Origin: Candidatus Aegiribacteria sp.
GTDB taxonomy: Bacteria; Fermentibacterota; Fermentibacteria; Fermentibacterales; JCC-6
NCBI GenBank assembly: GCA_013138965.1
Contig: WTBT01000001.1
Span: 82,342-146,341 of the forward strand
DNA length: 64,000 nucleotides
Direction of reading: 5' to 3'
Position numbers and translations under genes: made by a program. This document shows, one piece after another, positions 14,489 through 19,709 of this stretch (positions within the stretch are counted from its first letter, which is position 1; every line of letters begins with the position of its first letter). Below the pieces are notes generated by a model. That model was given only the letters and a program-made list of their open reading frames with translations, made no database searches and was not told where the DNA came from.

Positions 14489-15562
14489 ATGCACTCCATG
14501 CTCAGAAGTTTTGCAGGTTCGCTGAACTTCTCTTCAGAGCACCTCACTACTATTAAGAAACTGGGAGAGTACAAGGGCAAGCAGGAACTCTATTCAAGGC
14601 AGATACCAGAAGTACTGAAGCGCCTTCGTGAGAATGCGATTGTTGAATCAGTCACTGCTTCAAACAGGATCGAAGGGATAACAGCTCCGGAAACAAGGGT
14701 AAAAGCCATAATTCGAAACCCCGAAAAGGGTCACAATCACAACGAACAGGCTATAGCCGGATATCGGGACGCTCTCAATCTGATTCATTCATCGCACCAG
14801 GGAATGACGTTCGACTGTAACGTAATACTTCAGCTTCATTCAATGATCTACCGGTACTTGCCGGAAGCCGGAGGGCATTGGAAACATGAAGATAACCAGA
14901 TAATCGAGAAGAATCCTGATGGATCAATGATAAGGGTGAAATTCAAACCTGTAAGTTACATCCAGACACCTGAAGCCATGAAATCGCTCGAACAGGTATA
15001 TCTGGAGCAGACGGAACGCTACAGAACAGAATCGCTGGTATTAATTCCTCTGGCAATACTGGATTTTCTCTGCATACATCCCTTCGATGACGGGAACGGG
15101 CGTATCGCCCGCTTACTTTCATTACTTCTGCTCTACAAAAGCGGTTTTGAAGTTGGCAGGTACATCAGCCTGGAACGAATCATCGATGAATCGAGAAGAA
15201 GCTACTACGACACTCTCGAAGAAAGTTCCATAAACTGGCATGCCAACGTGCATGATCCTTTCCCCTGGATAACCTACTTCTGGGGAATTCTTATCAGAGC
15301 ATACAAGGAGCTTGAAGAACGAGTAGGTACATCGCAACCATCAAGAGGTTCCAAAACAGCCAGGGTAACAGAAGCTATTATGCGATTACCTGGAGAGTTC
15401 TCAATCTCAGATCTGCAAAAGATATGTCCCACAGTAAGCAGGGACATGATAAGAGTAGTTCTGCGGCAACTGAAGGAAGAAAATATCATATCCGTTCAGC
15501 GCAGGGGAAGAGCATCAAAATGGACCGTAATCAACAGAGGAGACCATGATGCTAACAAGTAA
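14489..15562 (+). CDS. Fic-domain AMP-transferase with winged-helix C-terminus
   Basis: A 357-residue Fic protein. The active-site loop HPFDDGNGRIARLL matches HPFxxGNGRxxR, and an inhibitory-helix motif SNRIEG, (S/T)xxxE(G/N), lies N-terminal near residue 70, making it a class II self-inhibited Fic enzyme. An N-terminal DUF4172/Fic_N-like part precedes, and the last 70 residues (FSISDLQKICPTVSRDMIRV, then IISVQRRG) form a winged HTH. Such enzymes transfer AMP to target hydroxyls and often regulate their own gene. AAAGGAA precedes the ATG. It is probably a single-gene transcription unit in the accessory region. Confidence 0.93.
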   Translation: MHSMLRSFAGSLNFSSEHLTTIKKLGEYKGKQELYSRQIPEVLKRLRENAIVESVTASNRIEGITAPETRVKAIIRNPEKGHNHNEQAIAGYRDALNLIHSSHQGMTFDCNVILQLHSMIYRYLPEAGGHWKHEDNQIIEKNPDGSMIRVKFKPVSYIQTPEAMKSLEQVYLEQTERYRTESLVLIPLAILDFLCIHPFDDGNGRIARLLSLLLLYKSGFEVGRYISLERIIDESRRSYYDTLEESSINWHANVHDPFPWITYFWGILIRAYKELEERVGTSQPSRGSKTARVTEAIMRLPGEFSISDLQKICPTVSRDMIRVVLRQLKEENIISVQRRGRASKWTVINRGDHDANK

Positions 15563-16183: not shown

Positions 16184-16789
16184 ATGAAGAACAGCCTTCT
16201 TGCGATAATTGCTGCTGCTTCGGGTTTTCTGCTCTTTTCAGGCTGCATGGGAACTTTCGAGACGGCCAGGGTGGTACCTTTCAAGCTAGGCGCCACTTAT
16301 TTCGCAACAATTGATGCCAGCGAAGACGACTCCTTCACTATGCCCGGCATGATCCTTGAAACTGGATGGCCGGCGGCTCCGGCACGGTTCGGGCTGGGGC
16401 TTCACCTCAGGGCTACCGCGGTCATTGGATCCGACCAGAATGATGACAATGGTTTCATGATAGTCTGGGGGGGCAAGTTACAGATACCTCAGAACAGTCT
16501 TATCGATATTGCCCTGGGATTGGATATATGGGGTTATGTCCCGGGTGAAATCAAGTTGTATCTATCCAGAAGGTTCGGCATCATCGAACCTTACGTTATC
16601 CTGGCCGTAGCTGAACTCATCGATTTCAGAGATAGTGATATTTTAAATGCTGACGGTTTAACGAGTTATACCCTTGGCACGATGATTGAACTTGGAAGTG
16701 GGTCCGGCTGGGCGCTTGCTGCAGAGTTTGAAGGCGGAGACGTATGGGTTTCTCAGGGAGTGGGCCTGGGTCTGATCAGGGAATTCTGA
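16184..16789 (+). CDS. Secreted lipoprotein, possibly outer-membrane beta-structured
   Basis: A 201-residue protein with a lipoprotein signal peptide: positively charged MKNS, a hydrophobic core and the lipobox LFSGC with Cys at about 21. The mature part is rich in alternating Gly/aromatic strands (WGGKLQIPQNSLIDIALGLD, FGIIEPYVILAVAELIDF, LGTMIELGSGSGWALAAEF), a pattern seen in small outer-membrane beta-barrel or barrel-like proteins. No named family is recognised. It ends 12 bases before the isochorismatase-like gene and could share its transcript. Confidence 0.65.
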   Translation: MKNSLLAIIAAASGFLLFSGCMGTFETARVVPFKLGATYFATIDASEDDSFTMPGMILETGWPAAPARFGLGLHLRATAVIGSDQNDDNGFMIVWGGKLQIPQNSLIDIALGLDIWGYVPGEIKLYLSRRFGIIEPYVILAVAELIDFRDSDILNADGLTSYTLGTMIELGSGSGWALAAEFEGGDVWVSQGVGLGLIREF

Positions 16790-16801: not shown

Positions 16802-17476
16802 ATGTACACTGAACCGTTTGTAACGCCGGATAATATCGATGATAAACTTTCGGAGTGGCTGGCTCGGATAGAGAAACACACCCATCCCAGGCCGCACCTT
16901 ACACTAAAAGCAGACAAGTGCGCTCTGATCGTTGTGGATATGCTCCATTACTTCGCTGATCCCGGTGGAAGGGTATATCTGCCTTCGACAAGAGCGATCA
17001 TCCCTCGAATAGCCATGCTTCTGAAACACTGGAGAAGGATCGGCGGAACCGTGGTTTATACCAGGCACTGCCACAGCGGTTCTGAGGATCTGGGAATGCT
17101 TGGCAGATTCTTCAGCGATTACATCCGTTGCGGGAAGAAGGAATCCGAGATCATCTCTGATCTATCCCCCCTCCCCGGCGAGAGGGTGTTACGGAAAAAC
17201 ACCTACGATGCATTTTACAATACAGGTCTGGATGAGTTTCTGAGAAGCAGGTCTGTGGAGCAGGTTCTTGTTACCGGGGTGCTGACGCAAATGTGCTGCG
17301 AGACAACGGCAAGATCAGCGTTCGTCAGGGGGTACGAAGTGTACATTCCGGCGGACGCGGTGGCGACAAGCTCGGAGGAACTTCACATCGGCAGCCTCAT
17401 GAACCTCGCAAGCGGCTTCGCGGTTATCACCGATGCTTCATCCATCTGTGGCTACGGATTACAAAACATTGAATGA
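16802..17476 (+). CDS. Isochorismatase-family cysteine hydrolase
   Basis: A 224-residue member of the isochorismatase-like hydrolases (nicotinamidase/ureidoacrylate hydrolase/isochorismatase fold). The catalytic Asp is in ALIVVDMLHYF, the Lys in VLRKNTYDAFYNTGLDEFL, and the nucleophile is in VTGVLTQMCCETTARSAF. The Cys is doubled, CC, where the family usually has one. The substrate cannot be inferred from these residues. It overlaps the flavoprotein gene by up to 44 bases and is the first enzyme of a three-enzyme operon. Confidence 0.88.
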   Translation: MYTEPFVTPDNIDDKLSEWLARIEKHTHPRPHLTLKADKCALIVVDMLHYFADPGGRVYLPSTRAIIPRIAMLLKHWRRIGGTVVYTRHCHSGSEDLGMLGRFFSDYIRCGKKESEIISDLSPLPGERVLRKNTYDAFYNTGLDEFLRSRSVEQVLVTGVLTQMCCETTARSAFVRGYEVYIPADAVATSSEELHIGSLMNLASGFAVITDASSICGYGLQNIE

Positions 17477-18356
17477 CGTAACCGTTATCGGAGCGGGGCC
17501 GGCAGGCTGCGCGGCAGCTGTTCAGTGCAGAAGGCTGGGCCTTGATGTCATTCTGGTTGATACATGCGGAAAAGCGGGGGGGCTCATCCGAGAGGCACGG
17601 CTCATCGAGAACTATCCCGGGCTCGAAAAGCCTGTTGCAGGGCCTGCATTCGCACGAAGGCTGGTTTCCATCGTTTCAGCACACGATCTGAAGGTACGAT
17701 GTTTTCATGCTGACTCGATCGCTCTAAACGAAAATGTCTTTGAGATATACGGAAACGGCGAATGCATCAGATCGCGCTCGGTGATAGTCGCTGCGGGAAC
17801 GGTTCCGAAGGATTTCGGTCTCAAAATTAACGGAGATGTCAGAATACACCGGTCTATCCTAGATCTGCTTTCGCAACCTCCGAAACGAACAATAATAGTT
17901 GGTGGTGGCGAGGCCGCTCTGGACTACGCGCTGAACCTTTCAGATTCAGGATCATCTGTCAGCATGCTTGTCAGAGGCTCCCGCCTCAAGGCCGCAGGCA
18001 AACTCAGGGATAAAATCGAAAGACGCAGTATTGTTACAATCCTTTATAATACCGTTCCCGTATCGGCATCCAGTTTAGAGGGAATTACCCTTCTTGAAGC
18101 TGAGTCATCAGGACGGGAAATAATTCTGGAAGCGGATGCTGTGCTTGCAGCTGTGGGCAGGGAACCCCGGCTGCCTCGGATTATGAATGATTTCGTTCAT
18201 GACCGGGGAAATGTTAGAACATCAATTCATGGATTGTACATTTCAGGAGACGCTTCACTGGGCAGCCTGGGGCAGTCTGCCATAGCATCAGGCCAGGGTA
18301 TTCAGGCAGCGCTATACACATTTGAATTTCTGAAAGCAGGGAACGGCAAATCGTGA
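17433..18356 (+). CDS. Thioredoxin-reductase-like flavoprotein without CxxC
   Basis: An FAD/NAD(P)-binding protein of about 300 residues. VTVIGAGPAGCAAA is the FAD dinucleotide fold, IIVGGGEAALDYA the NAD(P) fold, and GDASLGS near the C-terminus the second FAD contact. In thioredoxin reductases a CxxC lies just before the NADPH fold; here the corresponding stretch reads IHRSILDLLSQPP with no Cys, so it cannot pass electrons through that disulfide. The start is uncertain: ATG 17433 overlaps the hydrolase by 44 bases, while a TTG at 17469 would remove the unneeded N-terminal residues. It may serve as the reductant for the radical SAM partner, which is inference. Confidence 0.85.
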   Translation: MLHPSVATDYKTLNDVTVIGAGPAGCAAAVQCRRLGLDVILVDTCGKAGGLIREARLIENYPGLEKPVAGPAFARRLVSIVSAHDLKVRCFHADSIALNENVFEIYGNGECIRSRSVIVAAGTVPKDFGLKINGDVRIHRSILDLLSQPPKRTIIVGGGEAALDYALNLSDSGSSVSMLVRGSRLKAAGKLRDKIERRSIVTILYNTVPVSASSLEGITLLEAESSGREIILEADAVLAAVGREPRLPRIMNDFVHDRGNVRTSIHGLYISGDASLGSLGQSAIASGQGIQAALYTFEFLKAGNGKS

Positions 18357-19333
18357 AAATCGTAGGACAACGGGGAGAATCAGATCTCGCAACCGTTTAT
18401 ATAGGTGAGCTTTCTGGCGGTGAGCTTATCGAGTTCGTGGAATCGGTGCAGCCTCCCGTACCGCAGAATGAAAAATGGGTTCTCATCGTCTCCACACTCA
18501 AAGGCTGCCCCGTTAATTGCCCCATATGCGACGCCGGGAATTCCTATGCCGGAAAGCTCTCATTCGGGGAAATAATCGGCCAGATAGATTTCATGGTGCG
18601 AAGAAGATACAGTGACGGCAAAGTACCTGTCTCAAAGTTCAAGATTCAATTCGCCAGAATGGGTGACCCCGCTTTCAACCCGGCCGTTCTGGATGTTCTG
18701 CAGGAATTACCTTTCGTTTACGATGCCCCCGGACTATTGCCAAGCATATCAACCATCGCGCCAAGGGGTTGCGATGATTTCTGGGAAAAACTTACGGATA
18801 TTAAGAACAGGCTATACGCCGGCGGCAGATTCCAGATGCAGTTTTCAATCCATACATCGTCCGAGGAAAAAAGACCTGAACTTGTGCCCTGCAATACATG
18901 GAGCTTCAATGAAATGAGCGAATGGGGTGAGGAATTCTTCAGTTCCGGTGACAGGAAAATTTCCCTGAATTTCGCTGCGGTCAGAGGGTATCCGGCGGAT
19001 CCGGCAGTAATCGCCGACTTCTTTTCACCAGAGTGTTTCATGGTTAAGCTTACGCCCGTCAATCCGACACATTCTTCCCGGAGCCGTGGGCTTGAGGGTA
19101 TCATAGACCCTGATCGTCCGGAAACGGCTGATGAACTTGTTAACGGTTTCCAGAATGCAGGATTCGATACTATCCTGAGTATAGGCGAAACAAGGGAAAA
19201 CCGCATAGGTTCAAACTGCGGAATGTACGTTGGGCGTTTATCCAGTAACCGGGAGGAGAAAGCACCGCAAAAACACGCTCTCCAGATGTTGCCCCGTGAG
19301 TTCCCTGATAGATATCGTAGGGAGAGAAACTGA
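18353..19333 (+). CDS. RlmN/Cfr-like radical SAM enzyme
   Basis: A 326-residue radical SAM protein. The cluster motif is GCPVNCPIC (Cx3Cx2C), placed and flanked as in RlmN/Cfr methyltransferases, with a conserved-looking FARMGDPAFNP like their F-MGxGE/P region and LTPVNPTHSS like their LIPxNP. A single Cys in IGSNCGMYVG corresponds in position to the methyl-carrying Cys of RlmN. The N-terminal accessory domain of RlmN is missing. The GTG start overlaps the flavoprotein stop (GTGA). The last 30 residues run antisense into the convergent lipoprotein gene and probably are a late extension. The substrate is unknown; it is unlikely to be the housekeeping RlmN. Confidence 0.82.
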   Translation: MKIVGQRGESDLATVYIGELSGGELIEFVESVQPPVPQNEKWVLIVSTLKGCPVNCPICDAGNSYAGKLSFGEIIGQIDFMVRRRYSDGKVPVSKFKIQFARMGDPAFNPAVLDVLQELPFVYDAPGLLPSISTIAPRGCDDFWEKLTDIKNRLYAGGRFQMQFSIHTSSEEKRPELVPCNTWSFNEMSEWGEEFFSSGDRKISLNFAAVRGYPADPAVIADFFSPECFMVKLTPVNPTHSSRSRGLEGIIDPDRPETADELVNGFQNAGFDTILSIGETRENRIGSNCGMYVGRLSSNREEKAPQKHALQMLPREFPDRYRRERN

Positions 19334-19709
19334 ACCGGTAGGACATATTCCTGCGTGTGAAATCCACGGACCAGACAATCCAGCCGCCATTATCAAAGGG
19401 ACCCCAGGTCAGCGTTGTAATATTGGCATCGTAAAGCTCTTCAAGCTCGTAATGGTACGGCAGCCTCCAGTTACCGCCAATACTTGCAGCCCATATTCTG
19501 GCCTCGTACCAGTCGAAATCCCTGTTCGGGCCGACTATCCACTGCAGACCGGTTACTATATCCGTGATAATATTGTCAGAAGATACCAGGAAGCGGTCAT
19601 AAATACTTATGCGTGAGGTCGAAGGCCTGCAGCCGGGCAGAATAAGCGGAAACAGTGAAAGGATTATTACTGATGTCCTCAGAAATCCTTTGACTGTCAT
19701 TTCATCCAT
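19170..19709 (-). CDS. DUF1566 (Lcl-like) domain lipoprotein
   Basis: A 179-residue protein with a signal peptide ending LILPGC (lipobox). The body is a DUF1566-like domain: DIVTGLQWIVGPNRDFDWYE, then ARIWAASIGGNWRLPYHYEL and WGPFDNGGWIVWS, ending near GERVFAVLS, where the family normally stops. The final 22 residues lie antisense to the radical SAM gene's 3' end, with which it overlaps by 164 bases tail to tail. Either start M1 or M4 is possible. Cell-surface, function unknown. Confidence 0.75.
   Translation of the reverse strand: MDEMTVKGFLRTSVIILSLFPLILPGCRPSTSRISIYDRFLVSSDNIITDIVTGLQWIVGPNRDFDWYEARIWAASIGGNWRLPYHYELEELYDANITTLTWGPFDNGGWIVWSVDFTRRNMSYRFSFSPYDIYQGTHGATSGERVFAVLSPPGYWINAQRTFRSLNLCGFPLFRLYSG

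Follow-up and report, generated by a model that had tools for sequence, protein, structure and literature searches.

A dedicated three-gene cassette joins a sister family of the RlmN/Cfr radical SAM methylases to a CxxC-less flavoprotein and a cysteine hydrolase

The window, a stretch of 64,000 nucleotides from Candidatus Aegiribacteria sp., carries at positions 16802-19333 three neighbouring genes on the same strand, which we call HYD, FAD and RSAM (Table 1). A preliminary description, made from the DNA letters and a list of open reading frames (ORFs), took them for a hydrolase, a flavoprotein and a radical SAM enzyme, and both the ORFs and profile searches confirmed all three. It also considered the genes to be coupled by a 44-bp and a GTGA overlap. 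The GTGA overlap is indeed present at the FAD-RSAM junction, but the 44-bp one had to be revised. In two relatives (loci L014 and L018) an in-frame stop lies a short way 5′, so that FAD cannot begin there before the TTG homologous to the one in the window. By this comparison the ATG first called as its start appears too far upstream and the window gene probably starts at the TTG, which would reduce the HYD-FAD overlap to 8 bp.

Table 1. Genes and key residues of the cassette, in positions of the window
Feature	Position	Strand	Basis or remark
HYD, isochorismatase-fold cysteine hydrolase	16802..17476	+	PF00857, E 1.5e-43
HYD catalytic triad D46-K132-C165; codon of C165	17294-17296	+	family-wide conservation
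FAD, thioredoxin-reductase-like NAD(P)H/FAD protein without CxxC	17469..18356	+	likelier start TTG 17469
FAD ORF as first called, from ATG	17433-18356	+	ORF listing
RSAM, compact RlmN/Cfr-like radical SAM protein	18353..19333	+	profile and fold searches, tree
RSAM Ile45 codon, site of RlmN resolving cysteine C118	18485..18487	+	alignment
RSAM Cx3Cx2C motif (C52, C56, C59)	18506..18529	+	invariant, 54/54
RSAM Cys289 codon, site of RlmN methyl-carrier cysteine C355	19217..19219	+	invariant, 54/54

Several other ORFs surround the cassette. Directly 5′ of HYD lies a lipoprotein-like ORF of no known family (16184-16789, +), which is kept in the nearest relatives and is present as two tandem copies at locus L033, and a Fic/DOC-domain protein is encoded upstream of the cassette (14489-15562, +). 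At the other end, an antisense ORF with an Lcl_C domain (19170-19709, -) shares 164 bp with the 3′ end of RSAM. Relatives keep this ORF too, and L018 carries a tandem duplication of it in which the tail of RSAM is copied as well.

HYD matched the Pfam Isochorismatase family (PF00857) with 149 bits against a cut-off of 27, and its catalytic triad is retained throughout the family (Asp in 43 of 44 members, Lys and Cys in all 44). The nearest NCBIfam models were BiuH and RutB in all 29 members compared. These amidohydrolases, of biuret and ureidoacrylate respectively, share the isochorismatase fold and the Asp-Lys-Cys triad with HYD, but the window protein scored only 86 bits against RutB and 77 bits against BiuH, far below the equivalog cut-offs of 370 and 378, and the gene context is different. 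With regard to a defence role, no PADLOC match was found for HYD or RSAM.

FAD matched TIGR01292 with 133 bits (E 7e-39; cut-off 343). It retains both dinucleotide-binding motifs, in which G20, G22, G25 and G157 are invariant, and the best PDB folds for its predicted structure (pLDDT 93.6) were thioredoxin reductases. Its two-domain FAD/NAD(P)H fold is thus shared with thioredoxin reductase and with the CxxC-less ferredoxin-NADP reductases that resemble it. In contrast to thioredoxin reductase, FAD has neither a redox CxxC nor any conserved cysteine, as the highest column of the alignment holds Cys in 11 of 53 members, and its gene is linked to a radical SAM gene. The original view of a flavoprotein that keeps both nucleotide folds and lacks the redox disulfide is therefore correct. 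Since no cysteine is conserved, electrons must be handed straight from the flavin to a substrate or a partner; the obvious candidate for such a partner, and a likely one, is RSAM. By description, a parallel is LipT, an FAD-binding NAD(P)H oxidoreductase encoded beside the radical SAM pair LipS1/LipS2 and proposed as its electron donor (PMC10332631). LipS1 and LipS2, however, belong to radical SAM families different from that of RSAM, and most cassette genomes are without LipS2.

RSAM had no Pfam match, and no Pfam or NCBIfam family above its own cut-off named it; the score against the RlmN model was 25.5 bits, compared with a curated cut-off of 290. RlmN and Cfr nevertheless ranked first in profile and fold searches, and they were the closest folds to the predicted structure (pLDDT 88.8), as the early comparison with these enzymes had anticipated. 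Such a weak RlmN match could mean that RSAM is a divergent rlmN duplicate, standing by chance next to two other, unrelated housekeeping-type genes. Against this, the host genome has a separate canonical rlmN (349 bits), which also removes the concern that RSAM is itself the housekeeping enzyme, and in 31 of 34 genomes with the cassette a different gene exceeds the curated RlmN cut-off. Maximum-likelihood analysis placed RSAM and RlmN in two separate clades with support 100/100.

Inspection of the alignment revealed both the common ground with RlmN and the departure from it. Only four cysteines are invariant in RSAM, each in 54 of 54 members: the three of the Cx3Cx2C motif, and C289, which aligns with the methyl-carrier cysteine of RlmN and Cfr (C355 and C338; Cys in 20 of 21 RlmN). 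The motif and the distal Cys reported at first are thus real features of the family. The loop around C289 shares I285, C289 and G290 with the RlmN loop, and Gln follows in 39 of 54 members, giving the CGQ signature of RlmN; RlmN/Cfr and RSAM also have E27, S47, Q77, N109, R174, P179 and N237 in common. At the site of the resolving cysteine (C118 of RlmN, C105 of Cfr), in contrast, all 54 RSAM members have I, V, L or M and none has Cys, although Cys is found there in 20 of 21 RlmN. RSAM starts at about position 70-79 of the RlmN model, and the N-terminal helical RNA-binding domain, already described as missing, is absent from the predicted structure as well. In addition, polar residues invariant in RSAM replace those of RlmN (given in brackets) at K97 (N), Q99 (V), R102 (G), Q163 (A), N206 (E), K232 (N) and E282 (G), and N288 is found in 52 of 54 members where RlmN has A. 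Judged from these sequences, RSAM is not RlmN or Cfr, because it forms a separate clade, has no resolving cysteine and no RNA-binding domain and has acquired new invariant polar residues; it also differs from them in having its own reductase and hydrolase genes adjacent. The replacements suggest that RSAM has exchanged RNA for a small, polar substrate.

When 385 genomes were searched, the full RSAM family was found in 57, of which 24 lie outside the window's own order and span 19 families; three more matches (about 1e-16 to 1e-17) resemble ordinary RlmN. Follow-up searches of two phyla detected RSAM in 45 of 103 and 8 of 10 genomes, respectively. Overall, the cassette is known from about 24 bacterial families. 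A plasmid search gave only matches that look like ordinary RlmN/Cfr. FAD adjoins RSAM in 49 of the 51 neighbourhoods fetched, the exceptions being one contig end and the ambiguous locus L130, and HYD lies within the same neighbourhood in 41 of 51, nearly always directly upstream of FAD; the suspicion that RSAM homologs might occur mostly without the other two genes was not borne out. The commonest intergenic spacing within the cassette is a 4-bp overlap. Because gene order and tight spacing recur over many families, the set is not a chance arrangement. Clustering of the neighbours at 31 loci gave no fourth gene widely common to them. No FAD-RSAM fusion was found; an apparent gene fusion at L131 proved to be an out-of-frame read-through.

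The association also holds where the genes are unlinked. In all seven assessable genomes where HYD is missing from its normal position, a close HYD (192-242 bits) was found elsewhere, in one of them (G356) on the opposite side of RSAM; in two further genomes without the usual linked HYD, the match was no more than a fragment at a contig end or a weak one. Among genomes without RSAM, a close HYD (>180 bits) occurred in just 3 of 80 (G099:C1:2491447-2492028, G020:C63:64830-65405 and G062:C42:11316-11867), and these may be remnants, results of assembly gaps or cases of a separate HYD use. Pairwise distances of HYD, FAD and RSAM correlated with one another (rho 0.73-0.75, permutation P <= 0.001), whereas their correlations with the distances of RlmN from the same genomes were 0.02, 0.08 and -0.03. 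This result indicates that the three genes of the cassette move together and that their history is unlike that of the housekeeping rlmN. The joint history, the conserved order, the co-occurrence even when unlinked, the rarity of HYD without RSAM, the distinct clade and the separate rlmN together refute the notion of chance neighbours. The observation of the cassette is thus real and stronger than first described: RSAM constitutes a broad, well-delimited sister family of RlmN/Cfr within a dedicated three-enzyme cassette, a set of which we found no description in the literature searched.

The genes around the cassette vary by lineage. In one genus it closes a biotin operon, in one lineage it follows the rpoA-rplQ genes, and at three Thermotogota loci LipS2 adjoins HYD; elsewhere it precedes a cluster of YgeY, carbamoyltransferase, dihydropyrimidinase and SsnA-like genes, or adjoins purB or purA. 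The slight leaning toward purine and pyrimidine genes is insufficient for naming a substrate. The first and third of these contexts, with a review that links an isochorismatase-like gene to an orphan selD, could be taken to mean that the cassette serves biotin, lipoate or selenium metabolism as an accessory, but the distributions make this very unlikely. The biotin link was dropped since bioB is also present in the genus with the biotin operon and exceeded its cut-off in just 9 of 39 genomes, and the lipoate link since LipS2 did so in 5 of the 32 genomes that carry the cassette (all five Thermotogota) and in 1 of 15 others. For selenium, 15 of 29 genomes with the cassette had selD above its cut-off, compared with 7 of 11 others; of five Thermotogota tested, none did.

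One copy lies in a cultivated Thermotoga (G472), probably T. maritima, where the cassette adjoins a trp operon and a TnpB-like gene (OrfB_IS605, Cas12f1-like TNB domain; L113:3657-4901, -) is inserted between FAD and RSAM. At two other Thermotoga loci a gene of about 190 aa with a metallo-beta-lactamase fold is set tightly in the same place (L114:5933-6511, -; L115:4429-4995, +). We rejected the idea that it replaces HYD there, since HYD is also present; several genomes of this Thermotoga genus carry the gene between FAD and RSAM besides HYD, and it is possibly a fourth pathway member in them.

With regard to function, the preliminary description saw in the genes a small pathway, for either RNA or nucleotide modification or metabolite methylation. 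The dedicated set with the flavoprotein as its likely reductant stands, and metabolite methylation is plausible. Modification of RNA is not supported, because RSAM has neither the RNA-binding domain nor the resolving cysteine and carries invariant polar residues in place of those of RlmN. An RNA methylase for another rRNA or tRNA site, reduced by FAD and only loosely related to HYD, would agree with the RlmN/Cfr fold and with the position behind rpoA-rplQ in one lineage. These sequence features, the tight tie of an amidohydrolase to RSAM and the patchy distribution nevertheless render it improbable.

We consider instead that the three genes would form one self-contained pathway, small and anaerobic. 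RSAM would represent a compact offshoot of the RlmN/Cfr fold that has abandoned RNA and binds one [4Fe-4S] cluster and SAM. C289 would most likely still be a methyl carrier, through which one carbon is attached to, or inserted into, a small polar substrate that probably carries a charge. FAD would take electrons from NAD(P)H and hand them straight on, most likely to RSAM, reducing the cluster and resetting the cysteine, and HYD would hydrolyse an amide or ureido bond, either to prepare the substrate or to release the product. We estimate the probability of this combination, methyl-carrier chemistry on a small substrate with electrons from FAD and hydrolysis by HYD in one pathway, at about 0.4. 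The differing neighbours and the absence of a FAD-RSAM fusion count against this explanation. Counting against the methyl-carrier role is the lack of the resolving cysteine, for which another base or thiol would have to act, none being conserved in RSAM; in RlmN, product release needs this cysteine, and its loss traps a covalent enzyme-RNA adduct (PMC9692996).

The same lack bears on the main rival, according to which RSAM is a non-methylating radical enzyme (an epimerase, lyase, dehydrogenase or rearrangement enzyme), C289 donates a hydrogen atom and is re-reduced by FAD at each turnover, and HYD handles the product. A cysteine serves as hydrogen-atom donor in spore photoproduct lyase and in radical SAM epimerases, and a single conserved cysteine outside the cluster motif, with no resolving partner in RSAM and a dedicated reductase adjoining it, would suit such a role. 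The C289 loop, however, resembles the methyl-carrier loop of RlmN, and the nearest folds of RSAM are all RlmN/Cfr methylases, which leaves the donor role doubtful.

Under the methyl-carrier reading, the cassette might represent a radical SAM system of a new type, which methylates a small metabolite or inserts one carbon into it and in which a methyl-cysteine radical without a resolving cysteine, redox supply by a CxxC-less flavoprotein and an amidase are combined; we advance this tentatively, at less than even odds. If true, it would add a further class of radical SAM methylases, and the pathway would be an anaerobic one shared by many bacterial families. The reductant of RlmN-type enzymes is termed currently unidentified in a review (PMC9692996). 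RlmN and Cfr act on RNA with two cysteines and the RSAM family retains one, so this family offers a direct route to asking what the resolving cysteine does and what reduces RlmN-type enzymes, and the copy in a cultivated Thermotoga makes the cassette open to experiment.
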